Shown here in pieces: positions 1,200-50,690 of a DNA stretch of 64,000 nt. The stretch is taken from NCBI RefSeq assembly GCF_965363235.1, contig NC_134842.1:34804505-34868504 (forward strand), read 5' to 3'. This DNA comes from Mytilus galloprovincialis (Eukaryota > Mollusca > Bivalvia > Mytilida > Mytilidae). The position numbers and the translations under genes are program-made. Positions within the stretch are counted from its first letter, which is position 1; every line of letters begins with the position of its first letter. Below the pieces are notes generated by a model that worked only from the letters and a program-made list of their open reading frames with translations, did not search any database and had not been told where the DNA came from.

Positions 1200-2600
1200 A
1201 AAATTCTGATAAGGTTGACCTGAAATTAAGGTCTGAATTTAAACTGGGTAATTATATTTTGTGCAATGAGATAGAGACTCCGAAACTTGTAAGTGCTCTT
1301 GGTGCAATACAAAAACCTAACGGTTCAATAAGATTGATTCATGACGCAGAGGTTGGCGGTATAAACTATTATGCAAGTGATACATCATGTAAATATATGG
1401 ACTTAAAAGATGCATGTAAAATTATTAAAGAAGGTGATTTCCTGGCAAAAGTAGATTTGTCAAATGCATATAGAAGTGTGAAAGTGCATGCTTCTAATTA
1501 CCCTTATACATAATACTGGGTTGCACTGGAGATTTCAAGGTGATAATCAGGATACATTTTTCTATGACACTAAGTTACCTTTTGGAGCAGCTCAAAGCCC
1601 AAGTATTTTTCAGAGACTAAGTAGTGCTGTGTGTAGAATTATGAAATCAAAATATAATTTTTGTGTTATTGCATATTTAGATGATTTTTTAATTATAGAG
1701 TCTACATATGATAGATGCTCTGCTGCTCTAACTTATTTGATTAAGCTATTGCGTAAATTAGGTTTTTACATAAATTGGAATAAAGTTGAAGGACCTTCAC
1801 AGCGTTTAATATTTTTAGGTATTTTGATAGATACATGTAAGTTAACACTGAGTTTACCAGGTGATAAGTTAACAGAATTTTTTAATTTGTTATGTGATTT
1901 TAAAGGTAAACATAGGGCTAGTAAAAAACAAATAGAATCTCTTATTGGGAAGCTTAATTGGAGTTGCCAGGTTATAAAGGGGGGTCGCACTTTTCTTAGG
2001 CGTTTGCTAGACCTCAAGCATTCTTTGAAAGGAAGCCAACACAAAGTTATCTTGTCAGATGATTTTCAAAAAGACTTAAATTGGTGGATTCAATTTATAC
2101 ATGAATTTAATGGAACAGTGAATTTTATAAACAAGAAACCAATAACCAACATTCAAACAGATGCGTGCAATTTTGGTGGAGGTGCATTCTTTAACAGTGA
2201 TTACTTTTATATTAATTGGAAAATTGACATGCCAGCAGTTGCAGATTTTCATATCAACATTAAAGAGACAGTTACACTTATTTTGGCCCTTTTTCATTGG
2301 CATGAACAGCTACGAGACAAACATGTCATGGTATTTACAGATAATATGACAGCACGTTCTATAATAAACAAAGGCACATGCAAATCATCATATGTTATGA
2401 ATTTATTGCGACAACTTTTTTGGTTACAAGCGACTTTTAATTTCACTAAGCTCTTTTTTCTTCCTGGAAAATTTAATGTATTAGCAGACTGTGTTTCAAG
2501 ATTACATGAAAAAGGACAATTATCTAAGTTGTGGAGTTTGAACTATATATACTCGTGTGGTTTTATACCATTTACTTTGAAGGAGCTTTGTTCTCATATG
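1200..2600 (+). mobile_element. Reverse transcriptase and RNase H region of the fossil retrotransposon
   Basis: Reverse transcriptase hallmarks are visible: a KPNGSIRLIHD-type block, KVDLSNAYRSV, LPFGAAQSPSIFQRL and the catalytic YLDD. These are followed by an RNase H-like segment with TDACNFGGGAFF and FTDNMTARSII. The order and motifs fit DIRS-order retrotransposons, whose reverse transcriptase is related to Ty3-type elements. Confidence 0.85.
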
Positions 2601-2609
2601 TCACCGGCC

Positions 2610-3580
2610 TTTGTATTTTACAGGTGGGGAAGAGCTTCGTGCAAGACTGTATAGTAGTGTGCAGAAATACAAAGCCTGTGGTTGGTCAGAAGGGACAAAG
2701 CGTACATACAGGACTCAATTGAATTGTTTTCATACCTTTTGCAAATTATTAGACTTGGCTTTAGTGCCCTTTTCAGCAGATAATGTGTGTTTATATATAG
2801 CATATTTAGTGGATGTTAAATCGTTTAAGTATTGTACAATTGTGAATTATTTGAATATTATTAAGCATTTACACAAAGCAAATGGACTAGAGGAGCCAAT
2901 CTCCGGTAATTGGCAGATTCAGAAAGTTTTAAATGGAGTTCGTCGTTCTATAGGTGATGCACAGAAAGGTGCAGAATTAATGTCACCTCGATTACTCTTA
3001 ATAATAAAAGCTAATTTAGATTTGAATTCGCAAAATGATATTTGTATTTGGTCAGCTTGCTTAATGGGATTTTATGGATTATTACGTCCAGGAAATTTTT
3101 TGCATTAAGGAAAATATGTAGAACATAGAGATATCCAAATTTGTGATGTTCACTATCATAGAAATGGTTACGTTATTGAGCTTCAGTGGACGAAAACAGT
3201 ACAATTTCGTGAACGAAAATTAAATATTGTGTTACCTTCTATAGTGGGACATCCGTTGTGTCCCACTTCAGCAATAAAGGAATTATTGCATTTTCATTTT
3301 AAACGCGGTGCAAAGGAAGACTTACCTTTATTGTGCAATTTATCATATCAGATGTTTATTTCACGCATTAATAGCATTTTAATTAGCAATGATATCAAAC
3401 AGCATATAACAGGTCACTCTTTTCGACGGGGCGGTGCCACTTGGTGTTTGCGCATTGGGATGTCGGACAGTATGATAAAGGATATTGGAATGTGGAAAAG
3501 TGATGCATATTTACGGTACACAGAAGTGGACTTCAGCAGAAAATTTGACATTGTGCAATCTTCCGACCTAGCTAACTTGG
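2610..3580 (+). mobile_element. Tyrosine recombinase region of the fossil retrotransposon
   Basis: The region includes a core-binding-like segment (TYRTQLNCFHTFC onward) and a catalytic segment with HSFRRGGATWCLRIG and a late LRYTE, matching the H-x-x-R and tyrosine boxes of phage-integrase-type recombinases. In this order the recombinase replaces the DDE integrase of LTR elements, which explains why no target-site duplication is expected. Confidence 0.85.
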
Positions 3581-6215: not shown

Positions 6216-8435
6216 TTACTGATGCCATATTTTGGAATTTCTGTGACCTAAATGGTTCGCGAAAATTAATATTTTTATATATTGTATAGTAATAAAGAGT
6301 ATTTTACTGTTTTGTTAATAATTATATTTCTATATTATTTGCTATTTTTCTGCCATTTTTTTTTTTTTTTTTTTTTTTTTTGTTCCATGGTCTATTGCAC
6401 TGAAAATTATCGTTCTATTGCACCTGTGTGCAGTCTATTGCACTGACCTGTTATGACCTCTTATTCTGAAGTCTAATTAGTTGAAAGGTATTCATGTTGT
6501 CCAATCAAATTGGGTCTTTTAAACGTTCATGGTACAGCCGTTAAATTTTGAAGAATGTTTAATATGTTGACTTTAATGATTTCTTGTCGTTTAAATTACT
6601 CTGATTTCATATTCGTTTTATTGAATTTCTAAAGTATTGGTTGTGCATGTATGCTCCTTACACATCATAATTAATACAGTTATTACTTTCATGCGTTTTA
6701 TTTCTAAGAATTTGTTAGAACAGACTCAGTATGTATTAGGTAATAAAACAGTTATTGAATGTGTAACAGTGCAATAGATCAAAATATATTTCCCTCGGTA
6801 TGAAGATCAGCTCATTGTTCTATTGCTCTCAGCCGTTGGCAACAGATTATAGAGCAGACAGAAATCAGGATGGTACAATTATATATGCATAACATTGAGA
6901 ATGTAAATGGCGAATGTGTCAAAGAGACAACCCGACCAAAGAGCAGATAACAGCCGAAACCACCTGCAAGTGATAATGGACGGCATTATAAACTCCGAAA
7001 AATATAATAGAAATTAAAACTAGAAAAATACACTTCATTTGTAAATGTATCTAGGCACGAATCCTTGCAACTTAAAAAACTACTCCAATGGAAAATGAAA
7101 TTTAAAAATACGCATTATATAAAATTGGTCATTATTATTATTACTATAGGAAACCCGTATTTTTTTATAAGGGAAAGAAGTCTTCGAATTGTTTCGTTTT
7201 AAACACTGTTGTGTTTTGTAAGTGGTTGTTGTCATTTTTAACCTGGTTTTTTTTGCCATTGGGTTTTCAGATTATTTCCAAATCACTTGTAATATCCTTT
7301 TGCATCCTTTTTTACATGTTTACCGTCACCCATACCATGCATGTACGGAATTGGTCAGTAAATTCCTATATCAGTGTTAATCAGCTTTGTAAAATTATCC
7401 AGAAATTATGATTTTACATTCAATTTTTAATCCATGACCCTTCTCAATCACAAGTTCAGAGAGACGGATAAAAATATGTATAGTTTTAAAAGGATTTAAA
7501 AAAAAGACTCAAACTTAATAGTCACAATGATGGTCCGAGACCACAATTAATTCGTAGTTCATTTCTTTTAGAACATAAATGAAAATTTAAAAAATCCCAA
7601 CTGCGCTTTCTCAATGAAATTTTTACAGTGTGTTGTACTACTTTTGGGACAAAGCATATCAAAATTATAGAAAACTTCATCGGCTTTAACTCAAAATATG
7701 GACAATTTTATGTTTAGGGCGTCTTGAAATCTTTTGACAGCTACCGAAGTGCTTATTTCTAACCTTTTTCAGCTGGACCAAATCACTACTTTCCTTTAAA
7801 ATTCTGAACCCAACTTTTTTTACAGTGTAATTTCACCCCCCTACTTACAATTTGAGGCACAAAACAATGAGAAATAAATTTGGAAGGGGTATAAAAAATA
7901 TTGGCAAGTAACCCACTGTCAACACTAGGGACTATATTTGTATTGTGGTCTAGGACCAGATTGGGATAAAATTAAGTTGAAGAATTGAGATATTATGGTT
8001 AAGTACGATTGCACTACTAATTTAATTATTGAAATGTAACAATCATATCAGTAGCCTGACCGATTAGCCGACCTTACTAAAATAATGTCATAATGACAGA
8101 GTTCTCAATAACCCCAACTTTGTAACTGGAACAAGAATTATGTGTATCTGTGATGTAGTTACAACCTTGAAAGATTCACGCACAGTGTGTACACTATTCT
8201 GAATAAAGATAACTAAACGTTTAATATATTTAATGATTTTTATAAAGCTAACACTAACTGTATATAAAATCAGATTTGTGTCAGCTGTTATTAACAACCT
8301 ATCACATGGTTTGTCACTTAAGATAGATACTATTGATCATACACGTAAAGTTTTAGTTGAATAATTATGTAAATCTAATTTTAGTATTGTCCACACTAAA
8401 CGATGCCGTAGGTAAATGATAGGTCACTATCTTAC
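6216..8435. other. Intergenic, upstream of the UNC93A-like gene
   Basis: Contains a poly-T run (6358-6381), the word tctattgcac repeated at 6390-6440 with its complement near 6770, and a family 2 fragment on the minus strand at about 6895-6985. No gene is seen. Promoter elements of the downstream gene cannot be placed with confidence. Confidence 0.45.
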
Positions 8436-9347
8436 ATGTATAATATTAGTACAATGTCACAACGACGGAATGAAACCGAGAACCTCGAGGAGATATGTTT
8501 GTGTTTTAGAGCCAAAAGGGGTGACAGCACCAGTGGTCATGAAATTCGCAATACTTACATTCTGTCAGCCTCATTTTTCTTTGTATTTACTGCATACTTA
8601 GCGATACAAAACTTACAGAGCAGTTTGAATCAGGAAGCAGGGCTAGGAGTGACATCGTTGTCGTGCTTATATGGATTTATTATCATTTCAGCTGTATTGG
8701 CACCAACTGTGTTAAAGGTTATTGGCGGGAAGTTGGCACTTGTTATTGCTTGGATACTACATATAGTCTACACTTTATGCAACTTTTATCCAACATTCGG
8801 AACTTTGATTCCTTCATCTATTTTACTAGGACTGGTGTCCGGTCCTTTATGGACAGCGCAAAGTATTTATATTACAAGAAATGCTTATTCTCTTGCAGAT
8901 CGCACAGGTAAAGATGCGCATGTTTTGCTCAGTAGACTAAATGGAATCTTCTTTACAATATATGAACTAACACAAATCAGTGGAAATCTAGTGTCGTCTG
9001 CCGTTTTATATAAAAGTGCAAGCCATAGTTCCAATGCTTCATCTACGACCTGTGGTGTCAGTGATTGTCCTGCAATATCCGGAAATGCTACTGTGTTGGA
9101 CCAGCCATCTTCAGATGTCGTGTACACTATGCTTGGCGTCTTTCTTGTCTTTGATGTCATTGGACTCATCTTGACTGCAACATTTTTACCTCCTTTGCCG
9201 AAGAGCCAGTGGACAGAGTCTTCTTCCATTAAGGAATCAGTGACGTCATGTTTCTTTACATTCGGTGATATGAAGATGTTGTTATTGGTACCATTTATAG
9301 CAATAATGGCGATGGAGCAGGCCGTTCTGTGGACAGATTTTACGAAG
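8436..9347 (+). CDS. UNC93A: UNC93A-like exon 1 (304 codons)
   Basis: Encodes the N-terminal half with about six to seven hydrophobic segments and ends in phase 0 at TTTACGAAG followed by a gtatgg donor. Reading past the donor soon gives non-family residues and a stop, which supports the splice. Confidence 0.9.
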
Positions 9348-11362
9348 GTATGGTTGACAAGAATGATTAACTTGATATAAAAAAGAAGATGTGTTATGAT
9401 TGCCAATGAGACAACTGTCCACAAGAGACCAAAATGACACAGACATTAACAACTATAGGTCACCGCACGGCCTTCAACAATGAGCAAAGCCCAAACCGCA
9501 TAGTCATGACTTTATATTAGTTAATTGACTATTTATGTTTGTATAACGTGCAGGTGCAAATATTTTATGTATTTCAGGACATTAACAGGTGCTCAATTTT
9601 ATAGCTGAGAATTTATATTGCAAACTAGTCAATTTCGTTCGCTTCTCTTTTGATATTGTAAAGTTTGTAGTCCACATAGATATTAATTTATCTGAGGTTG
9701 TAACTTAATTCGATGGTATTTCCACGAAGTTGCATGTCTGTATAGGATATACAATTACTTGGTATTGTAAGACATCAGCAAACATTTAATAATAATGATA
9801 TGTAGCTTTAAAGGAGAGTTTTTTTTAAGCAATGATTGCATGAAATGTAATCACAACCCCATGGTACTTATTTGATATTTAAATAGTTTAAGGTTTATTA
9901 CTACCTTTTATATTCACAAAATATATGGAACGATCTTAACTGTCTATACATCATATCCATGAACATTTCAAAAAAATAAATTTATGTAATATATTCTCAG
10001 ATACTCAAGTCATAAAATAATGTTATACTTGTCAAAATTACATAACTTTTGCAAGGTGCAGGAATATAGTATCTGTTTAAAAAATATCAATGATGCCATT
10101 GTTAAAGTCATCTTTAAAAAATAGAGTTATCTTCCTTTGTCCAGAATTCTAGTTGAATTTTAAAATTTCATTGAACTACCAATGCTTTATACAATGCAAT
10201 GTTTGATTTTACTTCCCACTGATAAATTAGAGCAATCTTTACCCTTCAGTGCTTACAAACGCTTTGATTATCTTATATTTTTAGTCTTACGTTAGCTGTC
10301 CAATTGGAATAAAAATGGTTGGCTTTATCATGGCGGCGTATGGAGGTTCAACAACTGTGTCAGCATTGGTGACGTCACGGCTAGCTAAATATACTGGGAG
10401 ACAGGTTTTGTTTGCAGTAGCCATAATTATACAAATGTCCATATTCGTTGCCATGTTTGTCTTTTATCCACAAGGAAGAAGTGACTTGCCTTATTTGTTT
10501 ATAATGGTAGTTATATGGGGTGTCGCCGAAGGAATATGGCAAACGCAATCAAATGGTGAGTTGTTATTCTTACTGTAAATCGCTTTCTGACTCAATATGA
10601 AATAAAAGAAGATATGGCATGATTACTGTTGAGAAAACTCTTCACAACAGACCAAAATGACACAGAAATTAACAACTATAGGTCAACGTACAACATTCAA
10701 CAATGAGCAAAGCACGCACCGCAAAATCGGATATAAAAGGCCCCAAAATGACAAATGTAAAACCGTTTAATGAAAAAACTAACGGACTAATTTATGTCAC
10801 AAATAACGAGCGAAAAACAAAACACACGACAACCACAAATACAGGTTCCGGACTTAGGACCAGCACATACATATAATCTCAAACTGTTCTAATCAGTTCT
10901 CAGACTAGGCCGTAGGTCCTCATACCAGGTCGTCAGAAATTCACAGCAATCTCGTAAAAAATATAACGTTCCATAAAAATCAATGCATAAAAAGTACTTA
11001 CATGTAACGCAAAATACTGGTAATAGAAAATGAAAAAGCAATACTAGAAAGCAAGCTCAACATACTTAACTTATCTAACCAGTCAAGGTTTTTTTCAAAT
11101 AAGCTTATAGTTGTATTTGTTATATTCTTTAGCACTGATTGGATATCTGTACCCAGAGAATACAGAGCCAGCATTTGCCAACTACCACTTCTGGAAGGCG
11201 ACCAGTTTTACTGTGTATTTTGCTATCAGTACTGTGTTATGTGTAAAGACAAAGCTTATTATCGTTATGACGTTATTGTCTGTAGCGTGTGTTTTGTATG
11301 TTGCTCTAGAAGTTAAAGTTTTCTTTAAACAACGGACTGCAAATATCTCCGAGACAAAATAG
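8436..11362 (+). CDS. UNC93A: UNC93A-like multipass membrane protein (whole gene, 3 exons)
   Basis: The exons are 8436-9347, 10285-10555 and 11133-11362, joined with matching phases at GT-AG introns to give 470 aa, close to the size of vertebrate UNC93A. The protein has alternating hydrophobic helices typical of the major-facilitator-like UNC93 family. Family signatures are NLQSSLNQEAGLGVTSLS at about residue 58, IPSSILLGLVSGPLWTAQ at about 125, and WQTQSNALIGYLYP rebuilt across the exon 2/3 junction. A hydrophilic loop with NAS/NAT sites and two cysteines at about residues 195-225 is probably extracellular. UNC93A is a plasma-membrane protein whose transport role is poorly defined; in vertebrates, UNC93B1 escorts Toll-like receptors. 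The start could instead be the Met at residue 7 (8454), which begins MSQRRNE. The gene appears intact. Confidence 0.92.
9380..9515 (-). repeat. Family 1 repeat in UNC93A intron 1
   Basis: A minus-strand copy beginning agaagatgtgttatgattgcc, about 35 bp after the exon 1 donor. The rest of intron 1 (9516-10284) is AT-rich with nothing recognisable. Confidence 0.65.
10285..10555 (+). CDS. UNC93A: UNC93A-like exon 2
   Basis: Follows a T-rich tract and ttag acceptor. It encodes SYVSCPIGIKMVGF through to GVAEGIWQTQSN, covering about three transmembrane segments, and ends in phase 1 before gtgagt. Confidence 0.88.
10603..10858 (-). repeat. Family 1 repeat in UNC93A intron 2
   Basis: A near full-length minus-strand copy, comparable end to end with the plus-strand copy at 4706-4975. 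It begins about 48 bp after the exon 2 donor. Confidence 0.65.
11133..11362 (+). CDS. UNC93A: UNC93A-like exon 3 (C-terminus)
   Basis: Acceptor tattctttag. The first bases complete the split alanine codon of the QTQ-x-N-A-L-x-G signature. The exon carries AFANYHFWKATSF and the last two hydrophobic helices, ends in a short basic tail and stops at TAG. Confidence 0.88.
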
Positions 11363-11767
11363 TTCAATACATCTTCAAATTTATACCTTGGACAGACACC
11401 TTGGTCTTCTAATGACCGCGTAAAGACGGATACTATGAGCTATAAGTTGACAGAATGATTCGTATACAAGTATGTACACCGAATGATTCGTATACAAGTA
11501 CACAGTTTGATTCGTATTCAAGTACAGGTTCATTGGCGATTGTATTAGAAAGTAAAAGATAATCAATGTATACTAAACAGGTTGTCGAAAAAACGTGTTG
11601 CGTCGAAAATGATATTACTTTTATTTATTTCATATCGGTTGAGAATAAGATTCTCTTATTGGATAAAAAGGGGTCACATGACATTCATTATTCTTCAGTA
11701 ACGAATTTCATCGGTCATTAACAGAACAAAACGGACCAGAAAACCGGTCGTTAACGAACTTTTACGT

Positions 11768-11888
11768 GATAATGACCGATGAGGCGTGGTTTCCGTCTGA
11801 TAATGACCGTTGGGGCGTGGTTTCCGTCTGATAATGACCGTTGGAGCGTGGTTCTCTGTTAATAACCGGTGAGCGTGGTTTCTCTGTT
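11768..11888. repeat. Tandem repeat, 31-bp unit, about four copies
   Basis: Units starting gataatgaccg and containing gcgtggttt begin at 11768, 11799 and 11830, with a diverged fourth copy to about 11888. The three clear copies are nearly identical. Confidence 0.8.
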
Positions 11889-22320: not shown

Positions 22321-23316
22321 ATGTTAGCGCTTACATTAGCAAGTTTGTTGTTACCGACATGTTTGTGTCAGCAGATGGGAGGAATGTGGAATGGTGGAGG
22401 TGGAGCAGGAGGTGCTGGTGCAACTGAAGGTGGAGCAGGAGGTACATGGAATCCACAAGCGGGTGGAATGGGAGGAGGAGGCGGAATGGGTTTCGGTGGA
22501 CAAGGTTTCGGTCCAGTTCCCCCAGAATTCGCCGCTGCTATGGGTGGTGGATTCAATACACAACCACCACCGATACCGCAAAGTATGATGGGTGGAGGTG
22601 GCGCAATGATGGGAGGACACGGAATGGGAGGTCAAGGTATGATGGGTCACGGTACTGGAATGATGGGCGGTGGTGGAGGGATGATGGGAGGACAGGGTAT
22701 GATGGCAGGTAATTACCCAATGTATCCGGGTATGATGGGTAACGGAATGATGGGAGGTATGGGAGCACCACAGCCTGGAGCTCCAGGTGGCCAACAGCCA
22801 GGACAGAAACCGACAACGAAAGCACCAGCTGTGGAATATGAAGCACCAGAACATCCTATCACTACGAAAGCTCCTAAAAAAATGAATGCTGCTTGGCAGA
22901 AAATGAAACAGGGACACGGAAGTGGAGCAGCCATATCAGCACCAGGTCAAGTACCAAATGGCGGCCATGGACATGGACCACATGATCAACAATTCCAACA
23001 AAATGCAATGCGTCACCAACAAATGCAACAACAAATGCATAGACAGTATCAAATGCAGATGCAGAATGGTAACCAGCAATCAAATCAAAGACAACAACAA
23101 CCACAATCTAAACAACAACCACAATCTAAACAACAGCCACAATCACAACAACCGCAGAACCAAGAACAACAACCAAGTTATACACAACAACAAAAAATAG
23201 GAATTATGGCAAGATTTAGTAACTCTATGAATCAAATGATGTCAACTTTCAATTCCATTCGTGCTAGCTTAGGAAAGCTTATAAGTACATTATCCAAATT
23301 TGTAAAATTACAGTAG
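22321..23316 (+). CDS. Secreted Gly/Met-rich and Gln-rich low-complexity protein
   Basis: 331 aa in one coding exon. Residues 1-17 form a signal peptide (MLALTLASLLLPTCLC). About residues 19-150 are Gly/Met-rich with GGGG, MMGG and GQGMM repeats. A short PTTKAP-containing spacer (about 163-185) follows. About residues 205-285 are His then Gln-rich (QQMQQQMHRQ, QPQSKQ repeats). The last 40 residues are a non-repetitive amphipathic stretch (MARFSNSMNQMMSTFNS, GKLISTLSKFVK). No conserved domain is recognised and there is no cysteine outside the signal peptide. Composition and secretion suggest an extracellular structural matrix protein, such as a shell, periostracum or byssal component, but the role is not known. 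A splice acceptor 7 bp before the ATG suggests an upstream untranslated exon. Confidence 0.8.
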   Translation: MLALTLASLLLPTCLCQQMGGMWNGGGGAGGAGATEGGAGGTWNPQAGGMGGGGGMGFGGQGFGPVPPEFAAAMGGGFNTQPPPIPQSMMGGGGAMMGGHGMGGQGMMGHGTGMMGGGGGMMGGQGMMAGNYPMYPGMMGNGMMGGMGAPQPGAPGGQQPGQKPTTKAPAVEYEAPEHPITTKAPKKMNAAWQKMKQGHGSGAAISAPGQVPNGGHGHGPHDQQFQQNAMRHQQMQQQMHRQYQMQMQNGNQQSNQRQQQPQSKQQPQSKQQPQSQQPQNQEQQPSYTQQQKIGIMARFSNSMNQMMSTFNSIRASLGKLISTLSKFVKLQ

Positions 23317-26024: not shown

Positions 26025-26735
26025 TGATATGACTTTTTAAGGGAAATTGACTCGTCTAGGTTGAACAAAACAAACCAATAAAAACTGCCCAAATATGGTA
26101 GTCACAAGACTTCCATTTGCTGTAATAACAAATGGGGTCAAAACGGGATAAGCTTTTGACTGACAATGAAAAGCGCGTTTCAGAAACAAACATTTACATG
26201 TACTTGTGTGTAGATGTTATGAAAAAAACTTCCCAATCAAATAGAAAGTAGTTGTTTTAATTTTTAAAAGTAATCCCTCTTCGAATGTTTATTAAATGTG
26301 TCTTTTGTGGAATATGTCTGTGTTTTTGGGGAGGATTTTGTCTGTGTTTAGGGATAACGTTGTCTGTGTTTTGGGGACGATGTTGTCCTTGTTATGGGGA
26401 ATTAAGTTGTCTTTGTTTTTAGGGACGACGTTGTCCTTGTTTTGGAGATAGGAGATGGCGTTGTTTGTGTTTTGGGAATAATGTCGTCTGTCGTTTTTGT
26501 TCGGTTTTTAACATTGAATACCGTCTTAGTAACCTTCTGATTTCCTTAATGGATTTATTAATTTTTGATTAACGTCCAATTGAAAGTGTTGCTTGCATAT
26601 TAAAGACAACTTGAAGCTTACCCCGTTTTGACCCCATTTGTTAATACAGCAATAGAAGTCATGTGACTACCATATTTGGGCAGTTTTAGGGTTACTTTTT
26701 GTTCAACTCGGAGGAGTCGATTTCATATAAAAAAT
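26025..26735. mobile_element. Foldback element with long imperfect TIRs and a minisatellite core
   Basis: The left arm (about 26025-26160) contains actgcccaaatatggtagtc and caaatggggtcaaaacggg. The right arm (about 26610-26735) is its reverse complement, with a few differences and the same order of blocks. Between them lies a degenerate tandem repeat. No transposase is encoded. Confidence 0.75.
26300..26495. repeat. Minisatellite, about 24-bp unit, seven degenerate copies
   Basis: Units approximate gttgtctgtgttttggggac. The phrases tctgtgttt and tccttgtt recur about every 22-30 bp. It sits centrally between the two inverted arms of the foldback element. Confidence 0.7.
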
Positions 26736-39017: not shown

Positions 39018-39065
39018 GGTCATAAAGTAAGTCAATATTGCAGAGTTTCAGTTTCTTCTCTAAAC

Positions 39066-42000
39066 ATGTGCTATTGTCGTAACTGTAAGAAACTTCTTTA
39101 TTATGTTGTAGACATCACTATGATTGTGATTCCTGTTCTTCTGCTGGTGTCGTTCAGTACCAAAACATCTGGTCAAGGTCAAGGTAATTCATGGGACACT
39201 CTTACAAATGACGTTAACCCGGTAACTGGATGGGAAGAGGTACGGCCTACACCTACCGCCGATCCTAACACGTCCACACCAGGAAGTACTGTTAGCTCTC
39301 AATCACAGACAGAACCTACACAAAAACGGAAACAACACAATATGAGAGAATCAGGTTTTAGTGCCAGTGAGAAGCAACCATCTCTTTCTTTAGACAAGAT
39401 GGACACGGGAACATTCCATTATAAAGAAACTGAAACCAATACGGCCAAAGCGACAAATTCAAAGTTAGAACAGTCTGCCAACGAAATACCAGCTGTTCCT
39501 GTGCCGTATACACCCGTAAATATGGATGTACTAGATAGTAATCCTAAAGTTCTTAATGCTCCAGTAGTTATACCTGAAACTCAAATAATTGAACTGAACC
39601 ATAATTCACCCCATGCTATAAAAGACAACCAGTCTCGGTTATCAAAACAAACTGGTTTATCTACTGGTATCGAAATACCGATGTCACACTTCCGTAGAAC
39701 AAGTTCAGGGTCAAGGGTTGATTCCAATATAAATACTGATAATAATAATTATATTATAATGGAACCTGTTCCAAGAGAAAATATTGTAGCTGCTCAGGAT
39801 AACACTTATTCTTTGAAATTATCTGGTTCTAAGGAACAAAAGAGAACAGACGAAACGGACACTAGCAAATCAGAACTGGTTGATGTACGTCCAGAATATC
39901 TTGTTGATGTCAAAAGAATTAACAATGAAGTTCAACCAATTCCTTTGACGATCACAGAATCCGTACTGACGCCAACAATTCAAAACAACCCTCAAGTGGT
40001 TGGTATTCCTATAGATGGAACAATTAAATCAGAGGTAGGCATTCCAGCAACATCAAATACAGAACAATCAGATAAGTCTTTTATCAGTCAAGCTGTAGAC
40101 TCAAAAGCATTTGAACCATTAAAAGGAACAGCACTTGAAGAACCTGAAACAGAAATGCTATTTGCGACAAACATTGCAAAACATTCGGGGGCTTTAATAG
40201 ATTCATCCATTGTCGATTCTAACAAGCCTTCGAAGTCCGATAATGAAAAGAATATACCCAAAGATGTACCTGCATTCACTAATGAATTAGCTACGACAGA
40301 AATTCAAACAAATCCGATCGAAGGAAATAATGTTGAAAATAAGGTTTTAACAGAATTAGTAGCCACTGGCAGTGAAACAGAAAGTACAACTACTGGAACT
40401 GTTTCGAAAAATAATGAAATCACAAAGGCAACGGGCAATGTAAATACGGGAACCTCTGAAATGAACCACCAAACAGCCATTGAATTCCCTATTGAAGGTC
40501 ATATGAAGGATGCAAAATTAGTGAATGACGTTAATGAATCATCTAAAACCCCTGAAACATACATTGCCGCCCCATTAGGAACTGATTTCAAAGAGACAGT
40601 GGTAAATGGCTGGATATTGATAGATCACCCTAAAACATCCGAAACAGTCAGTGTACCTCAATCAAGTGGAACTCTTTTAGAAGACCCAAATAAAGACACA
40701 TCATTGGCCAAAGACGTGATAGCTCAATCAAAAACCTCCGAAACAATCAGTGCACCTCAATCTAGTGGAACTGTTTTAGAAGAAACAAATAAAGATACAA
40801 CATTGGACAAAGGCGTGATTGATCAATCTATAACCTCTGAAAAAATCAGTGAACCTGAAATAAGCGGACCTGTTGTACACGAACCGAATAAAGATAATAC
40901 AATAGTAAGTGACGTGATAGAACAAACAATTAGTGAACAACAGTTAACTGATAAGGCTGTTGTAGGAGCTCCGATCGCGCCTGGTGGATTATCTATTCCA
41001 ATGCCACTTGAAGACCTGCCTGCCAATGCTGTACAAAGTTTTACCAGAGAAGGAGCAACAGAGGAACAACCTTCTTTAAATGATCAAATACCAGTGAATG
41101 AAGTGGCAAGTTTGAATGAGAATGTCCCTACAGTTCCTCATAGTAATGTAGTAACAAACACTGAAGCAGTATTTGATACCAATGCAGCAACAAACACTGA
41201 AGCAGTATTAGATAACAAAGCAGCAACAAATACTGAAGCAGTTTTGAATGTCAAGACATCACCAAACACTGAAGTAGTTTTAGATAAAAACTTAGGAACA
41301 AAAATGGAAACAGTTTTAGATAGCAAGACATCACCAAACACTGAAGCAGTTATAGATGGCAAGACAGCAACAAACACCGAAACTGTTTTGGATAGCAATA
41401 CAGCAACAAACACTGGATCAATTTTAGATAGTACGGCAGCAGTAAACAATGAAGCAGTTCTGGATACCACAGCAGCAGCAAACAACAAAGCAGTTTTGGA
41501 TAACACGGCAGCAGAAAACAACGAAGCAGTGTTAGATAGCAAGACAGCAGTAAACAATGAAGCAGTATTGGATAGTTATACATCAACAGACACTGGAGCA
41601 GTATTAGATAGCATGTCAACAGCAAATACCGGCGCAGTTTTAGATAGCATGATAGCACCAAAAACTGAATTAGTTTTGGAAAGCAAGACGGTACCAAATA
41701 CTGAAGCAGGTGTCGATAACACGGCAGTTACAAACACTGAAGCACTTTTGGATAGCAATGCAGCGACAAACGCTGAATCAGTTTTAGATAGTATGGCACT
41801 AACACACACTGGAGAAGTTTTAGTGGACAAGGCTTCAACTACTGATGCAGGTTTAGATAGAAAGGCAACAACAAACACTGAATCAGTCGTGGATGGCAAT
41901 ACAGAAGCAAACACTGAAGCACTTTCGGATAGCAATACAGCAACAAAGACTGATGCCGTTTTGGATATCAATCCAGCAACAAACACCGAAAAAATTTTGG

Positions 42001-45000
42001 AAAGTAATGTTGCAGAAGAGACTGAAGCAGTTTTGGTTAACAATAAAGCCATAAAGCCAGAAGCAGCTGTAGATAACAAAGCTACAACAAACACTGAGGC
42101 AGTTTTGGATAGCAATGTACCAACAAAGACCAAAGCAGTTTTGGTTAATGATAAAGCAACAAAGCCTGAAGAAGTTGTAGATAGCAAAACTGTAGCAAAC
42201 GCTGAGGCAGTTTTGGATGGCAATGTAGCAACAAACACCGAAACAGTTTTGGATAGCAATGCGGCAACAAAGCCTGAAGCAGTTGTGGATAACAAAGCTG
42301 CAACAAACGCTGATGCAGTTTTCGATAGCAATGCAGCAACAAACACCGAGACAGTTTTGGATAAAATTGTGGCAACAAAACCTGAAGCAGTTGTGGATAG
42401 CAAGTCTATTTCAATCGATCAGGCACAAACATTGGATGCAACAGTACCTGAAGGTACCATTACAAAGTCTCAAAATGTTGAGGCCATTGTTATTCCAGCG
42501 ACCTTCTATGAAGACAACTTACTCAAAAGCGAACCGTTAGCAGCTTCTGGTGTTATACATATAAATTCCTTGGATAAATCGGATACTTCATCTGCAAGCA
42601 ATTTGGGTCAATCTCTTGAATCTAAAACTGTAGATTCACAACAATCTGATCTGCTTGGAGGTACTAAAGACAATCTACAAAATACCCTTGCTGTCTCGCA
42701 AGATACTGAGAAGGCATTCACAGACAAGTCAAGCCCACCTAAAAGTCATCAAACAAAATCTGTTCAGACTTCAGATCAACTCGTAGGTAAAGAGGGAGTG
42801 GTTGTATATATGCCGAGTCAATCCGAAACTGCTACTGGAACAGGTTTGGATCAGCCAGAGCAATCTGTATTATATAAAGAGGTTCCCGTGGTACAATTTA
42901 AAGCAACGGATACGGTGTCAGAAACTTCTACATTAACTGACGGCATTATACCGGTCACAGCGGAAAAGGACATTAAAACTACAAATCTTGAATCGACGAT
43001 CCCAGTGGAAACTGAAGGTAAACAGATCATGTCTGAGCATTCAACCAGCTTAAAAATAAGCGACGAACAACAACTATCAAACAACAAACCTCTAGTGGAA
43101 GGATCTCTATCAATTGATCAAACCGTGATATCTAAAGATGTCGATGGGGTCGTTATTGAAGAGATTTCTCCAGAAACAGTTAATGTCGACTTAGTGTTTT
43201 CACCAACACCAGATAAAGTAGATATCATACCAGCATCTCAAGAGACAACAACAGTTAAGAAGATTGATGAAACTCCACAGTATGAGATAAAAGGTATTGC
43301 AAATACAGAAAAGTATGACCTGGCACTCGAAACATCAAAACATACAGACGCTACTAAACCGATGGTAACAACTACCTTATCACCATCTATTGCTAGTGAA
43401 TCGTTAACTTTGGATGGACAAAATATAAAAACTGAATCAATTAAAATAGCAGACACTACTGTACCTGATATAAAAACTACCGTTTCACCATTTATTGGTG
43501 ATGAATCACCAACGGTGCCAAAATTTGATGAACAAAATGTACAAACTGAATCAGCTAAAATAGCAGACACTATAGTACCTGATATAAAAACTACCGTATC
43601 ACCATTCATTGGTGTTGAATCACCAACGGTGCCAATAATTCAGGAACAAAATATAAATACTGAATCAGCTAAAATAGCAGACACTACTGTACCTGATATA
43701 AAAACTACCGTATCACCATTCATTGGTGTTGAATCACCAACGGTGCCAATAATTCAGGAACAAAATATAAAAACTGAATCAGCTAAAATAGCAGACACTA
43801 CTGTACCTGATATAAAAACTACCGTATCACCATTTATTGGTGGTGAATCACCAACGGTGCCAAAATTTGATGAACAAAATGTACAAACTGAATCAGCTAA
43901 AATAGCAGACACTACTGTACCTGATATAAAAACTACCGTATCACCATTTATTGGTGGTGAATCACCAACGGTGCCAATAATTCAGGAACAAAATATAAAC
44001 ACGGAATCAGCTAAAATAGCAGACACTACTGTACCTGATATAAAAACTACCGTATCACCATTCATTGGTGTTGAATCACCAACGGTGCCAATAATTCAGG
44101 AACAAAATATAAACACTGAATCAGCTAAAATAGCAGACACTACTGTACCTGATATAAAAACTACCGTATCACCATTTATTGGTGGTGAATCACCAACGGT
44201 GCCAAAATTTGATGAACAAAATGTACAAACTGAATCAGCTAAAATAGCAGACACTATAGTACCTGATATAAAAACTACCGTATCACCATTCATTGGTGTT
44301 GAATCACCAACGGTGCCAATAATTCAGGAACAAAATATAAACACTGAATCAGCTAAAATAGTAGACACTACTGTACCTGATATAAAAACTACCGTATCAC
44401 CATTTATTGGTGGTGAATCTCCAACGGTGCCAAAATTTGATGAACAAAATGTACAAACAGAATCAGTTAAAATAGCAGACACTATAGTACTTGATATAAA
44501 AACTACCGTATCACCATTCATTGGTAGTGAATCACCATCTGTACCAATAAAGGATGAACAAAATGTTAAAACTGAATCAGCTAAAATAGCACCAGAAAGT
44601 ATATTAGTTGAGCAGAAACAGGAAGTTGTTGATTCAACGGTTACTGAACCAATACATATCAACACAGTACCACAAACTGAAGGAACTGAGAAAGCAAATA
44701 TTGAACCTGTCTATACAACAATCGAAAACCCCGATTTACTTGTAAAAAACAATATACATGACAAAGCAACAGAACAACAAATGACAATTAAAGATCAGGC
44801 AGTAATTGTTACAGAGATAAAACAGACAGAAAAACAAACACTTGAACCTCGTGGCAAACAAACTATTGAAGAAACACAGAAAACTGCATTACCAGAAACA
44901 TACGTCACTGATACAGGACCCGAAAAATCTCAACTTAAACGAAGACTTGAAACAACCGACGTCAGAGTGACCGCATTAAAACCTGGAAAAACATCAAGAG

Positions 45001-45162
45001 TAGCGACGAGGACAATGGAAACAACGAACGAACTTTCAAGGGACTTATATGACAGAAGTATGCAGATACATCAAAGACAAGAACAGATGAATAATAAATT
45101 TGACAGAAAACATAATCTAGTTGAACAGTATGAACCAGAAATGACGTCTCCAGCTTTAGAAA
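39066..45162 (+). CDS. Pif-like gene exon 1: signal peptide and repetitive disordered region
   Basis: Encodes 2032 complete codons and ends in phase 1 before a gtaagt donor; the in-frame TAG at 45168-45170 lies inside the intron. Hydrophobic residues 19-36 (MIVIPVLLLVSFSTKTSG) form a signal peptide. Met1 puts a cysteine-rich MCYCRNC leader in front, so translation may start at Met19 (39120). After residue 7 no cysteine is visible in the whole exon. There are three repeat systems: three 33-aa units at about residues 518-620, about 35 12-aa units at about 695-1115, and ten 38-aa units at about 1456-1836. The last 100 residues become basic (RRLETTD, RVATRTMETT). Confidence 0.85.
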
Positions 45163-48100
45163 GTAAGTAGTTTTATTATGTGTCAGTAATTTGAATAGAT
45201 ACAATCTCGGATACTTTGTTACAACAAAAAGCCGAAGCATCCTTATCAAAGGTCCTATACACATATATGCGGAGTACAAACCAATGATACAACAAGCTAA
45301 CTTCACTTTCAACCAAAAATACATTCAAATTCATGTCAGTTTGGAGGTCAATAACTTGAAAACCAAAATGTCAAAACAAAACCATATCAATTCGTAACTA
45401 AGGTCAAGATAAGGAATTCACTTGTCATGAACGCATGATCTTTTCAAAAACGAAATGTTAACACATTCTATGTATATGTTACAATATTTAACATGTTTAA
45501 CATATGAAAAATAAGAAACATCTAAATGAAAACGAAAACACAGATCTCAAAATATTGATAAAAACAAAATAAGATTTGTTCACAAAATTTTATCATTTCA
45601 AAACACTTTTCATTATTTCAAGAGATTTCAGTGAGACCATAAATCGTTCTAATAAGCTTTTATTTAAGTCCAACATATGCATCGTAAAAACCTTATCGTC
45701 ACGACAACTGTTATTTATTCTTTTATTGTAGCTTTATGTGGCAATAGCATGTTTATTGATGGAATTGGTTATGCTGAGTACCCTGGGTATTGCGATAAAT
45801 TAGTTCAATGTTACCAATATCAACAAAGAGTTGTTGCTGTGCAAAGAGAATGTCCTTATGGATATTTCTGGCATCAGGACCAAGTATTATGTCGACCACC
45901 AGCAGAGGTTCCTTGTTATGATGGTAAATATTACAAGTAACAGTCAAATAGTTAAAAGTCGTGTCAAGTAACTTGTTACTATGATTAAACTTACAAATGA
46001 AAATTACACTTTAGAGATTGTTTATGACTCCAAAACTCTTTATTTGCCTTACTCAAATCGTTGAGAGCCACATATTTGGAAGCCGCGGATGTATACGTAC
46101 CGAAACACTTATTGAGCTAAAAAAAATGCTATGAATGGGGTTTATGAAAGGAACAAAAATATTGTTTTAATATTATATAATATAACATCCAAACAAGTAC
46201 CATTATTTATAAAAAAAAACTTTGTATAGATTTTATTTTCTGTATAAGTGGATTTAACCACTTGTTATGCCTTTGAATGTAATATGTTGTGCTTGACTTT
46301 CAGATCCATGTTTGGATATAGATATGGTACAATACAACAGAACAGGTGGATGTCGTTCTTACTTTCGCTGTGACTATGGAATATCTGTTCCTATGTGTTG
46401 CGAGAAAGGCTACCGTTATAACAACTATGGATGTGTACCAGACCCAACATGCAGGGACCCCTGTTTGACCCCTTATGATATTGAAAATAGAATGCGATTT
46501 CAAGGTTAGATTTTATTAATATTCAATAGAACAAAATGTAGCTGTTATATTTAATTCAGTTATCTCACCCTTTTCTGAAAAATAATGTACTATGCATTTT
46601 GTATTCAAGCATAACCGACTAAACACTTATTGTCGAAATGTGAATAAAACTAGTACTGTATATGTTATTTCAAGGATGACGTCCATCTTAGTATTATTAA
46701 AATCTCTTTATATGTTTTCCAAATAACTTCCAAGTGCTTCTGATGAAGTTTCTACGCCTATTTAATCAATCAGGCTTGGAACATGGGTCAATATTTTGGA
46801 AAATTGTAGCATACAATAAATGGTTTGACATACTTATTTAATTGCTATGTTTTTGTCACTGAAATAAGGCATTGTCTTCTTACAGCATGCAAGTTCTTAC
46901 CTGATGAATACAATCCTCATGGTTATCTTACTTTGGAACATAATGGATTAAGAATTCGAGCTTGTCCAGAAGGAACTATATTCAGTGCAAGACAGTGTGG
47001 ATGTAGAAGAGGATCAGGACCAATGCGTAATGGTAGACGTAGAATGAGAGGTTAGCATCATTAAAATTACTGTTCAATTTTTGAGGGTTTGAATTGGGTT
47101 CTCAGAATACAGAGTAATAATTAAAATTAAAAGGCAAAAAAACAATATAACAATTAAGGAAAGTAATAAAAAGAAAGAATACACAATAATGAGGTGCTAA
47201 ATGTAATATAAGAAATAGAGGACATGCTCTTAAAATGAAGACATGCAGTATTGGAGGACACCGTTTCCCATCCACAATTTGATAATAATTTTAAAAAAGT
47301 TGTTCTGCTTTCTAAATACAAAAAAAACTGAATCACCATGGGGAATGCTTATTTCAAGTGTAGAGTCAGTATGGCGTAAAATATGCGTGCTAAGTAATAA
47401 GTCTAATTTATCAGTTACATTTTATTTTTGAGAATTTTACTATCGATGAAAAAAATCTATGAGTTTGACTGTCCCTTTTGGTATCTTTCGTCCCTCTTCC
47501 AAACGTGTATAAGTATATTACATGTATGTTTCATTATAAACTTTAATTTTGATTGGCTGCTAATAACCGTTTGGCACTACTATTCAATATTATTTCCGTT
47601 TAGAACACAAAAACTATGACTGCACGCGGTATTCATGACAATGTAATGCTCGACTTATCTCGATGTTGGGAAGCATGTATTAATTTAGGCAATTGCAAAC
47701 GGGGAAATATTGGTCTCATATATAATACCTCAATACCTGTTGAGCTTGACTTTAGAAATTAATTATCAATATATTGTGACGTAATCAGTTGTCCATGATT
47801 TTCTATGCAAATAAGGCAGCAACCATTTGATTTTCTAGGGGGGGTGGGAGGGGGGCTATGGATTTTTTTGGAAAAAACAGTTTGTTTCCAGTTTTGGGAG
47901 AAACAATAATTTCTTTCTCATCCTGAGAAAAAAAATGTTTGTTTCAACCTCAGCTGCCACTATATGTAATGCTAAAATTGAAAGAAAATTTTTTTTTTCG
48001 ACTTCTCGCCAAAGGCGGAAAAAAATTTGTCCAGAAACAACACCACCACCACCCCGAAAATCAAATGGTTGCTGCCTAAGCGTCAGTGATTCTCAAACAT

Positions 48101-50690
48101 TAGTTTCTTATTCAGAATGTCAGCCAGATTTCTACATGAATTTCAATTACGGATTCAAGGAGTTGTCAGGTTCCAACATGGCGTTTGACGTAAACAATGT
48201 CGTCATTAATGATGGCGCTGCACAATTTAACGGAAATGGGCGCATAACTCTGTGGGGATTTATGAATAAAGAACTAGGAACTAAATTTGCCATTAGATTA
48301 CGATTCAAACCAGATCCAAAGGCAACAGAAAAAGGAAATTTGATTTCAAACTGCGGCATGACGGGTATTGCAACAGTTGCAATAGGATTAGAAAATCATA
48401 GAGTGAAATTAGTAGCCAAAAGTACCAGTTTTAGTAGAAGAACTATAATCAATAGTCATTTCGATGTAAGTATCGCATAAATACATAATTAAGTACACGT
48501 GGTGTGTGCAATCGGTACCATACCATTTTCTTTCAAAAAAATACTTATTTTTTTGCATGAAATCGGATGATTTCTCTTCAATTTGTATTTGAAAGGAGCA
48601 TTTATTGCTAGGGGAATATTTAGGACATTATGTACTGAAATCAAAAACCAAATATGTTTGTTTATACGTTTCTAGATTAAACACGTGTATTCCAAATGTC
48701 ATAGACGGTCCTAAAGCCTTGCTATTAATGACGTTTGTGAATTTGTTTATATAAAGGGTTGAACCTGTCAACTTTTAATAACATAAGCAACACGACGGGT
48801 GCCAGATGTGGAGCAGGATATGCTAACCCTTTTGGAGCAACTGAGATCACCCCCAGTTTTTCGTAAGGGTTCGTGGATGCCTATCTCAGTTATCTATGTT
48901 GTGTTTTCTGTACTATTATTTGTTTGTTTGTCTGTTTTATTTTTAGCCATGGCGTTCTCAGTTTTTTTGTTTTCTATCTATGAAGTTTGACTGTCTCTCT
49001 GGTATCTTTCGCCACTCCTTTACACCGCATTTTATATATTGATGCCCTTTTTATGGGACTGTGTCCCTCTGTCTTCAGTTTAAAGCTTAAACACTTATAT
49101 ATGTATTTAGTGGTTAAGTTGTAATGCAATAATTATTTATTTTTATAGCCATACTCTTGGAATGACATCACATATGTGTATGATGGTAACAGTTTCGTTG
49201 CTGCAATAGATGGCTATAGATCTAGAAAGCCGTTGGGAGGTACGTTGATTTAGTTTGAAATCGTTTTAGTGTTGAATTGTCTTCAATTAACAGTCCAATT
49301 ATGAATATGATTTACTTTTAATTTATTGGTATTTTAGTTTAGTAAGTTGGAAGACTTGAAATGATAATATGATTGAAATCAAAATATTTACAAACTGTTT
49401 ATAAATATATAAAAAAAAGACTGATATTTTCAAATTAATTTGAAAAAAATATGCAAACAGAGAGTAAAAAAATGAAAAATACATAGGATCAGGTTAAATC
49501 ATTGAGACTTTGGAATGATATATATACCCGGGAATGGTTCTAACTGATGACTAATTGGGTTTTGTGTCCTTGGTTTATGAATAATGGAAAATAACTTTTC
49601 TTACATGTTTAAAACTTATTCTTTTTAAATTTCGATCATTACTTGTGAAAGTGTTACTTTGTTTACGAACAAGACGTTATTTAATACCATATTTATTTTT
49701 CAGGTTTACTAGAAACAAGATCAAATGCTATTGTAATAGGTGGTTGTCCTAAACCTGGTTCGGGATACAAAGGTTTGATAGATAGTGTAAGTTGAATGTT
49801 ATTTTCATCTTTATCTCTTTACAAATAGAAAGGGAATGAGTATAACAGTTTCTGCACTTAACTGTACTCAATTTACCCGACTATTGACTATTTGATTCGC
49901 CTTGAGTTGTGCCGGAATTGAACATACGGAATCAAAATCAAAGCCACAATTTTACAAGTTTTGAACGAAATGTACACGGCCAAGTTCTCAATTGGATCTA
50001 AAACGTACCCAATCTATTCTACACAATAAAATATCTTTGATTCAAAGAAGCCATGTACAGTTCCGGCTTGAAATGCATTACAAGAACAGACATATCATAT
50101 CATATTCCAGTACATATTTTTATTTTAGACATTATTAATGTCTTCGATTTAAGAGCGCAAGCGATTTGAATGATTGTCATTATATAAGTTTAATTGGGGG
50201 AATAGTTTGGGAAGACAAAAAGCATAAAATGTTTACGAGCATCGGTTACGAGTTAGATTTTTACTAGCTTGGTCAATGCAGCTAACACAGTCGTATTTCT
50301 ACACTAAGCACGTGACATTTTGGAGTAAGAAAAAGACGACTTCTCGAAGTCAGAAAAATGTCGTCGTATAAACTAGTACGCTACAAACTGACATGGACTT
50401 GTCGGTCATATTAAATTATATAAAAAGGAAGATGTGGTAGGATTGCCAATGAAACTAATAATAAACATAAGCATGGTTTTTGCACTGATATACATGTAAA
50501 ATTTGCGTGACAGAATTATTTATAGCTATGTTTACGAAATGCATTTGTTTCTTTCTAAATTCAAAACTTTGTTATACACTGTTTTACATAACCCATGCTG
50601 AATGACCTTTGTATTAATTTTATTTTCCAGATTGAAGTATTTAGTGGTTGTATTCCAAGACATATTTACAAACCTCGTAAACAACGGTGA
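39066..50690 (+). CDS. Pif/BMSP-like shell matrix protein with giant repetitive N-terminal region (whole gene, 8 coding exons)
   Basis: The coding exons are 39066-45162, 45732-45923, 46304-46504, 46886-47050, 48116-48465, 49149-49239, 49704-49786 and 50631-50690. All junctions are GT-AG and phase-compatible, and together they give 2412 aa. The order is signal peptide, about 2000 residues of Thr/Ser/Glu/Val/Asp-rich repetitive sequence, three cysteine-rich modules of peritrophin-A/CBM14 type (residues about 2033-2218), and a LamG-like domain (about 2219-2400) with a basic tail (KPRKQR). Chitin-binding plus LamG is the C-terminal plan of Pif and BMSP, secreted proteins that tie mineral to the chitin framework of nacre. 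The von Willebrand A domain usual at the N-terminus of that family is not visible; the repeat region takes its place. A role in shell matrix is inferred from architecture. No break in the frame was found. Confidence 0.85.
40625..40930 (+). repeat. Coding tandem repeat, 99 bp (33 aa), three units
   Basis: Units contain SETVSVPQSSGTLLEDPNK, SETISAPQSSGTVLEETNK and SEKISEPEISGPVVHEPNK, each followed by a KDVI- or KGVI-type segment. Confidence 0.8.
41150..42410 (+). repeat. Coding tandem repeat, 36 bp (12 aa), about 35 units
   Basis: Consensus about NTEAVLDSNAAT. The length is strictly a multiple of 12 codons over most of the array, with many point-diverged units. The array ends before SIDQAQTLDATV. 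Confidence 0.85.
43434..44600 (+). repeat. Coding tandem repeat, 114 bp (38 aa), ten units plus a partial
   Basis: The phrase gaatcagctaaaatagcaga recurs every 114 bp. Units end in one of two tails, PKFDEQNVQ or PIIQEQNIN. The DNA is nearly identical between units, so the array is recent or homogenised. Confidence 0.9.
45732..45923 (+). CDS. Pif-like gene exon 2: peritrophin-A/CBM14-like module 1
   Basis: Acceptor ttttattgtag, phase 1 to phase 1. It encodes LCGNSMFIDGIGYAEYPGYC, then QC, EC, LC and PC, six cysteines in all, with aromatic residues spaced as in chitin-binding peritrophin-A domains. Confidence 0.85.
46304..46504 (+). CDS. Pif-like gene exon 3: cysteine-rich module 2
   Basis: Phase 1 to phase 1. 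It encodes DPCLDIDMVQYN, GGCRSYFRCDYG, MCCEKGYRYNNYGC and DPTCRDPC. The core GGCRSYFRCDYG matches the central CBM14 pattern. The trailing extra cysteines probably bridge to the next module. Confidence 0.8.
46886..47050 (+). CDS. Pif-like gene exon 4: cysteine-poor CBM14-like module 3
   Basis: Phase 1 to phase 1. It encodes ACKFLPDEYNPHGYLTLEHN, RACPEGTIFSARQCGC and a basic tail RRGSGPMRNGRRRMRG. The RACPEGTIFS-x-x-x-x-C end is typical of the CBM14 C-terminal half. The first half is degenerate. Confidence 0.8.
47420..47520 (+). repeat. Family 4 repeat 3' end in intron 4
   Basis: Carries tatgagtttgactgtccctt and ggtatctttcgtccc, the 3' end shared with 48780-49020 and, on the minus strand, 60555-60790. 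Confidence 0.55.
47812..48079. mobile_element. TIR-bearing MITE immediately upstream of the LamG exon
   Basis: Terminal inverted repeats of about 23 bp contain ggcagcaaccatttgatttt (left 47815 onward, right complement ending 48076). The interior has G, T and A tracts. The right end is only 36 bp before the exon that begins at 48116, so the element supplies sequence close to the branch-point region. Confidence 0.8.
48116..48465 (+). CDS. Pif-like gene exon 5: LamG-like domain, first part
   Basis: The acceptor ttattcag restores the phase 1 codon. The exon encodes ECQPDFYMNFNYGFKELSG, then FAIRLRFKPDP and NLISNCGMTG with alternating strands typical of concanavalin/LamG folds. It ends in phase 0 at gtaagt. 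The open frame continuing upstream from 48116 belongs to the MITE, not the gene. Confidence 0.85.
48780..49020 (+). repeat. Family 4 repeat in intron 5
   Basis: Begins acataagcaacacgacgggt and ends tggtatctttcgccac. It matches the 3' tail of the reverse-transcriptase fragment at 60555-61290 on the other strand, so this is probably a 5'-truncated retroelement copy. Confidence 0.7.
49149..49239 (+). CDS. Pif-like gene exon 6: LamG-like domain, middle
   Basis: Acceptor ttttatag, phase 0 to phase 1. It encodes PYSWNDITYVYDGNSFVAAI and DGYRSRKPLG, matching the W-x-D-x-x-Y-x-Y-D-G-x strand pair of LamG-like domains. Confidence 0.85.
49704..49786 (+). CDS. Pif-like gene exon 7: LamG-like domain, late part
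   Basis: Acceptor atttttcag, phase 1 to phase 0. It encodes GLLETRSNAIVIGGCPKPGS and GYKGLIDS, the conserved glycine/cysteine turn before the final strand. Confidence 0.85.
50631..50690 (+). CDS. Pif-like gene exon 8: C-terminus
   Basis: Acceptor attttccag. It encodes IEVFSGCIPRHIYKPRKQR and stops at TGA. The cysteine pairs with that in exon 7 in typical LamG domains. The end is strongly basic. Confidence 0.85.
   Translation: MEVFSGCIPRHIYKPRKQR

Follow-up and report, generated by a model that had tools for sequence, protein, structure and literature searches.

What kind of gene places a single 6.1-kb exon of cysteine-free repeats in front of chitin-binding (CBM14) modules and a laminin G-like (LamG) domain, the C-terminal plan of Pif and BMSP, and are those repeats a substitute for the von Willebrand A (VWA) domain, as the first-pass annotation of the locus had proposed? 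The window, that is, the whole stretch of 64,000 nucleotides of the Mytilus galloprovincialis genome that was analyzed (NC_134842.1, positions 34,804,505 to 34,868,504), contains such an arrangement on its forward strand. We consider it likely, including the origin and the mechanism outlined below, that this locus encodes a large extracellular-matrix protein that is secreted and belongs to the Pif/BMSP superfamily, being of the LamG3 type that lacks VWA.

The predicted chain of eight phase-matched exons (Table 1) holds: the introns are GT-AG, the joins are in frame, and there is no internal stop, the one change being a corrected start of exon 5. The long first exon lies in a stop-to-stop frame of 2050 codons (39018-45170, forward strand), compared with a chance maximum of 203 codons when that stretch was simulated 300 times with a first-order Markov model, and it contains no stop in the coding frame as against 144, 233, 123, 46, and 131 in the other five frames. 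The sole cysteines of the exon, at residues 2, 4, and 7, lie N-terminal to the hydrophobic signal segment, and the 1996 residues that follow this segment include none. The open frame, the tandem arrays, and the composition together bear out the description of a single cysteine-free exon rich in Thr, Glu, Val, and Asp. A second methionine occupies residue 19, and, in a hydropathy scan, the 11-residue window with the highest value anywhere in the protein begins at residue 20. The exon ends in TTAGAAA followed by the donor gtaagt. The corrected predicted protein comprises 2412 amino acids and, assuming a 36-residue signal peptide, would have a mature mass of 257 kDa; the repetitive N-terminal part (hereafter, the tail) accounts for about five-sixths of the mature protein.

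Table 1. Features of the target gene and of the two related loci compared with it most closely. Positions are those of the window unless a chromosome label is given.
Feature	Position	Strand	Description
Exon 1	39066..45162	+	ATG, signal peptide, and whole repetitive region; 2032 codons plus 1 base; ends in phase 1
Signal peptide region	39066..39173	+	residues about 1-36; cleavage site is an estimate
99-nt (33-aa) array	40618..40929	+	2.8-3.2 copies; absent from the first-pass annotation
36-nt (12-aa, TNTEAVLDS-type) array	41140..42403	+	35.2 copies
114-nt (38-aa) array	43413..44591	+	10.3 copies
Exon 2, CBM14 module 1 (CBM1)	45732..45923	+	phase 1-1
Exon 3, CBM14 module 2 (CBM2)	46304..46504	+	phase 1-1
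Exon 4, third four-cysteine CBM14-like module (CBM3)	46886..47050	+	phase 1-1
Interspersed repeat	47814..48077		intron 4; inverted ends of 29 nt (complementarity 90%)
Exon 5, LamG part a	48116..48465	+	phase 1-0; corrected start
Exon 6, LamG part b	49149..49239	+	phase 0-1
Exon 7, LamG part c	49704..49786	+	phase 1-0
Exon 8, LamG part d and stop	50631..50690	+	
Neighbor, VWA-bearing Pif-type gene	C5:34872706-34882976	-	convergent; about 4 kb past the window end
C8 sister gene, without VWA	C8:19459241-19456128 and 19453014-19451022	-	

The long repetitive part and the CBM and LamG exons very probably form one gene, a conclusion drawn from phase and arrangement. In all six loci examined out of the ten of the family (the target, its sister on C8, the neighbor, and the loci C5b, C7c, and C7b1), the final good donor ahead of CBM1 has phase 1; four of these six show a CBM1 acceptor of that phase, no acceptor having passed the filter in the neighbor and C7c; and the end of LamG part a falls in phase 0 for the target, C8, and the neighbor alike. 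Because these phases are shared across family loci, the exon chain is supported. The alternative, that exon 1 is a separate gene for a repetitive secreted protein ending at the TAG at 45168-45170, with exons 2-8 belonging to a transcript that has its 5' end elsewhere and possibly encodes a VWA domain, draws on the fact that the long frame stops just two codons beyond the donor. We nevertheless hold it to be very unlikely, given that a good donor and a good acceptor join phase 1 to phase 1, with the donor phase the same in all six loci, that the 49 kb upstream yielded no VWA, and that the C8 sister gene has the same arrangement.

The start of exon 5 required revision. In the first model, which gave a protein of 2439 amino acids, this exon began at 48035, with an acceptor that lies inside an interspersed repeat and has 5 pyrimidines out of 13; the acceptors of the other six introns have 9-10. 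The acceptor before 48116, with 10 of 13, preserves the frame and agrees with the start of the LamG exon in both C8 and the neighbor. Another frame-compatible acceptor, before 47954, equals it in pyrimidines (10 of 13) but, again, is located within the repeat. We place the start at 48116 because 48035 falls within the repeat. The 413-residue C-terminal query built on the first model carried 27 extra residues, from which a weak Dscam_C match and a match on C12 (query 191-225) may stem. The repeat itself has TAA on each side and resembles a small non-autonomous DNA transposon. A first look at the genome with its segment 47839-48060 gave 1049 candidates, of which the best 40, itself included, were scored, and the other copies are 82-92% identical to it except for one 31-base piece; within the window, the DNA pattern derived from the repeat occurs at its own site only.

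Three CBM14-like modules and a LamG domain had been read from the sequence, and profile searches agree with this reading in most respects. Together with the signal peptide, the CBM_14 and LamG matches in Pfam support a secreted protein with a C-terminus of the Pif/BMSP type. CBM_14 was found in two stretches of the C-terminus (E 6e-7), and the third four-cysteine module gave no Pfam match. Counterparts of this third module are present in nine of the ten family loci, seven recognized by blastp and two (C7c and C7b2) by reading and alignment; in C7b1, it was not found after CBM2. In the whole C-terminus, Laminin_G_3 scores slightly below its cut-off (26.3 vs 27.6), and when the LamG region is scanned alone, it passes (28.8 vs 27.6), as does Laminin_G_2 (24.1 vs 22.9). 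Among seven family members scanned, only the target gave a Pfam LamG match, most of the others being partial, with the first LamG exon alone. Alignment of LamG against solved structures yielded a single match, to an ion channel, with E 0.068. The LamG domain of the target is uninterrupted, and the 380-residue C-terminal part has a pI of 8.80 and 22 cysteines. No Pfam family, VWA included, was recovered from the 2032-residue N-terminal part.

The family context was established by searching the 1.385-Gb assembly (331 contigs) with the target C-terminus in a tblastn-type search, which gave 33 matches when the best 101 of 521 candidates were scored; a second genome search scored the best 150 of 443 candidates. 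An array of the decapeptide AKPSYPPTYK on C4 is in keeping with a Mytilus of the edulis/galloprovincialis type. At least ten family loci, the target included, carry a CBM1-CBM2 head, and LamG is seen in nine of the ten; in the remaining one, C7b2, the stretch examined ends short of the LamG region. Outside these ten loci, LamG-only matches were observed at C5:55752675, C5:33941627, C3:64534547, and C11:19935155. VWA is present in five of the ten, namely, the neighbor, C14, C7a, C7b2, and C10. At C10:11648143-11642712 (reverse strand), the VWA exon is flanked by Asp/Ser/Asn-rich frames of 525 and 308 codons. Four of these five loci supplied the sequences for the VWA profile, and their recovery is partly circular; C14, which was absent from the profile set, was still recovered (3.2e-12 and 7e-11).

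With this profile, no VWA was found for the target on either strand of 74 kb that includes 49 kb upstream (1134 and 1186 frames of at least 20 amino acids), nor was one found for the C8 locus in the 30 kb examined, 11 kb of it upstream. At C7c, the profile gave nothing in the 14.4 kb before the long exon, and the matches at C5b (E 0.045, 8.3 bits, in 14.3 kb) and C7b1 (E 0.18, in 12.3 kb) are taken as chance. The long exons of these three loci each have a phase-1 acceptor near the start, and earlier exons probably exist upstream of them. The ten loci fall into five with VWA, two (the target and C8) that open directly in a long disordered exon and lack VWA, and three (C5b, C7c, and C7b1) that may have it further upstream.

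Those phase-1 acceptors, along with an acceptor-like ttgcag immediately before the ATG of the target, are what could be said for a VWA exon lying more than 49 kb upstream, in which case 39066 would not be the true 5' end. We find this very improbable: exon 1 has its own ATG and the top hydrophobic segment of the protein from residue 20; in C8, too, ATG and signal peptide directly follow an acceptor; and unrelated frames, for a member of the UNC-93 family and a Gly-rich secreted protein, intervene. The former frame (8412-9374, forward strand) matches its Pfam family with E 2.7e-14. The latter (22321-23313, forward strand), 16 kb upstream of the target, encodes a secreted-looking Gly/Met/Gln-rich product of about 330 residues (MGGMWNGGGG..., MMGGQGMM...) that had no Pfam match, gave only itself in the genome search, and looks like another structural matrix protein. 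The window also contains a reverse transcriptase frame (1482-2648, forward strand; RVT_1 E 2.4e-14), probably part of a retroelement, and short tandem arrays outside the target gene at 11767-11882 (31-nt units) and 26315-26466 (24/48-nt units); searches of the window for tRNAs and Rfam families found none.

The order in the convergent neighbor is VWA, a Thr-rich disordered exon, CBM1-CBM2-CBM3, and LamG, with both the VWA exon and the Thr-rich exon symmetric (1-1). The proposal that repeats took the place of VWA is, accordingly, only partly right: VWA is indeed missing, but the neighbor already has a Thr-rich exon between VWA and CBM1, and the long exon of the target occupies the place of that exon; it is therefore read as the linker, grown, with the VWA in front of it missing. 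The following scenario would account for this arrangement. Pif-type genes would be chains of exons that are mostly symmetric in phase 1 (VWA, linker, and CBM modules), and because the VWA exon is symmetric in phase 1, its loss would keep the frame; the linker would have grown by tandem duplication and become joined to the signal peptide. The direction, loss of VWA, is our inference, the family tree being unrooted. A long exon before CBM1 is also observed in C5b (C5:7485278-7489807, forward strand), where 1510 codons encode an acidic Ser/Thr/Pro-rich sequence.

The target had further been seen as a potential lineage-specific member of the family, and this notion has to be narrowed, given a published class without VWA and a sister gene that shares the plan, although the giant tail remains unusually long. 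In C8, an ATG and signal peptide directly open a 1038-residue exon with 13-residue repeats, which is followed by a 664-residue exon, predicted to be joined to it, and, downstream, by CBM1-CBM2-CBM3-LamG. The heads of the two proteins are 42% identical over the aligned modules. In a tree of all modules from ten loci, the pairing of the target with C8 is supported at SH-aLRT/UFBoot 98.8/100, the CBM modules alone give 96.8/98, and LamG alone is weak (71.7/66); most of the other nodes of this tree are weaker. The one alternative tested, with the neighbor as the closest relative of the target, was rejected (AU p 0.0019). The tails, in contrast, do not match convincingly in sequence and carry opposite charges: the 1682-residue C8 tail, made up partly of SATGRASSVSGLK-type repeats, has a pI of 10.16, and that of the target, 4.43.

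The acidity of the target tail is moderate. In the long exon, Thr contributes 13.3%, Val 9.4%, Ser 8.8%, Glu 8.6%, and Asp 6.6% of the residues; the totals for the tail are 22.2% for Ser and Thr, 15.4% for Asp and Glu, and 8.0% for Lys and Arg. Under the charge-hydropathy rule, the tail falls narrowly into the folded class (H 0.446, boundary 0.440), and because of this, disorder is argued from composition and repeats. Among 10 copies of the 114-nt unit, pN/pS is 0.97, and among 33 of the 36-nt units in one register, it is 0.91 (0.88 and 1.01 within the two registers). With values near 1, the exact sequence therefore seems to be little constrained. In a genome search, the 623 residues that directly follow the signal peptide matched only themselves. 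Copies of the tail elsewhere were sought among five other family tails and discounted: blastp found a single match (C8, E 0.065), and phmmer found nothing. Five repeat peptides had no occurrence in the article texts searched.

The pN/pS values and the isolation of those 623 residues are what would be expected if the repeats had arisen largely neutrally through tandem duplication and did little apart from preserving the frame. We are inclined to doubt this, considering that the frame and the bulk composition have been kept across 6 kb and that long disordered exons recur ahead of CBM1 in several family members. The divergence among repeat copies suggests, rather, that the length and composition of the tail count for more than its precise sequence.

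Much of this fits published accounts. LamG3 proteins with chitin-binding (CB) modules and LG and without VWA occur in lophotrochozoans, VWA or LG has been lost several times in molluscs, and a Pif_LamG3 cluster arose by reverse tandem duplication; the same survey, with Mytilus coruscus among its 19 genomes, refers to low-complexity domains in the legend of its Fig. 6 (PMC10543319). The name LamG3 is used in two ways, denoting also a form that combines a single VWA with three CB and one LamG (PMC9635652). A classification by VWA phylogeny defines eight Pif/BMSP subfamilies and assigns low-complexity regions to four zones, of which zone 3 lies between VWA and CB; CBM_14 is present in 38 of the 50 family members, and LG after CBM is not found in all (PMC11291548). 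Of the features used in that classification, the target has CBM_14 and LG after CBM, and no VWA was found. As for LamG3 in the sense of PMC10543319, the target combines CB and LG without VWA and is homologous to VWA-bearing Pif: its C-terminal modules all align with those of VWA-bearing relatives, and exon phases are shared where callable.

A close parallel is with oyster LamG3 (Pif-e and Pif-f), which likewise has chitin-binding modules and LG without VWA, is explained by VWA loss from an ancestral Pif, and belongs to a Pif/LamG3 cluster formed by reverse tandem duplication (PMC10543319). The likeness is one of domain plan, and the target differs in its 2,000-residue acidic repeat region that shares an exon with the signal peptide and in having its closest paralogue on another chromosome instead of in the convergent neighbor. 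PifN resembles the target in its low-complexity, Thr-containing region before the CBM modules and, in PfuPifN, in an uninterrupted LG, but PifN has VWA, whereas none was found in the target (PMC11291548). BMSP also has CBM modules followed by LamG, but in bivalves carries four tandem VWA domains (PMC11291548, PMC7747718), and the target has none of these in the 74 kb searched on both strands. The mussel's own BMSP-type locus is C14. Pinctada Pif (Pif97/Pif80), like the target, joins a polar disordered part to a chitin-binding head in one precursor, Pif80 being the Asp/Arg/Lys-rich part. In Pinctada, this part is inserted between the LG halves, and VWA is present (PMC11291548), whereas the tail of the target is rich in Thr, Ser, Val, and Glu, N-terminal, and without VWA. 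Proteins with CBM and LamG but without VWA, Pif/LamG3 clusters, repeated VWA loss, and low-complexity regions are, thus, already known; what stands out here is how long the acidic tail is, and that the sister gene has a giant basic one.

A mechanism for such a protein can be proposed. The Cys-rich, slightly basic head (pI 8.8) would bind chitin via CBM14, LamG would hold matrix glycans or proteins, and the Thr/Ser-rich acidic tail would form an extended, hydrated polyanionic brush that keeps layers apart, might weakly bind calcium or mineral precursors, and could offer many sites for glycosylation and phosphorylation. The matrix in question could be that of the periostracum, byssus, cuticle, gut lining, or egg covering, not that of the shell. 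Chitin-binding and LamG modules are not shell-specific, which counts in favor of this possibility. Moreover, because mantle expression is not high for many Pif and LamG3 genes (PMC10543319), a shell role for the target is not assured. Relatives of the same architecture, however, include shell matrix proteins (PMC10543319, PMC11291548), and on the whole we deem a non-shell role somewhat unlikely.

As a decidedly speculative extension, the target and C8 products might act as a charge-complementary pair that could form complex coacervates on chitin, setting up a polymer-rich phase for the formation of mineral or periostracum. If the sister genes are co-expressed, their opposite charges would offer a testable idea on the assembly of disordered matrix proteins on chitin. 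More generally, a single chromosome-scale mussel genome presents a family member without VWA, its linker apparently grown, beside one that bears VWA, and surveys of Pif relatives based on VWA will miss genes such as this one.
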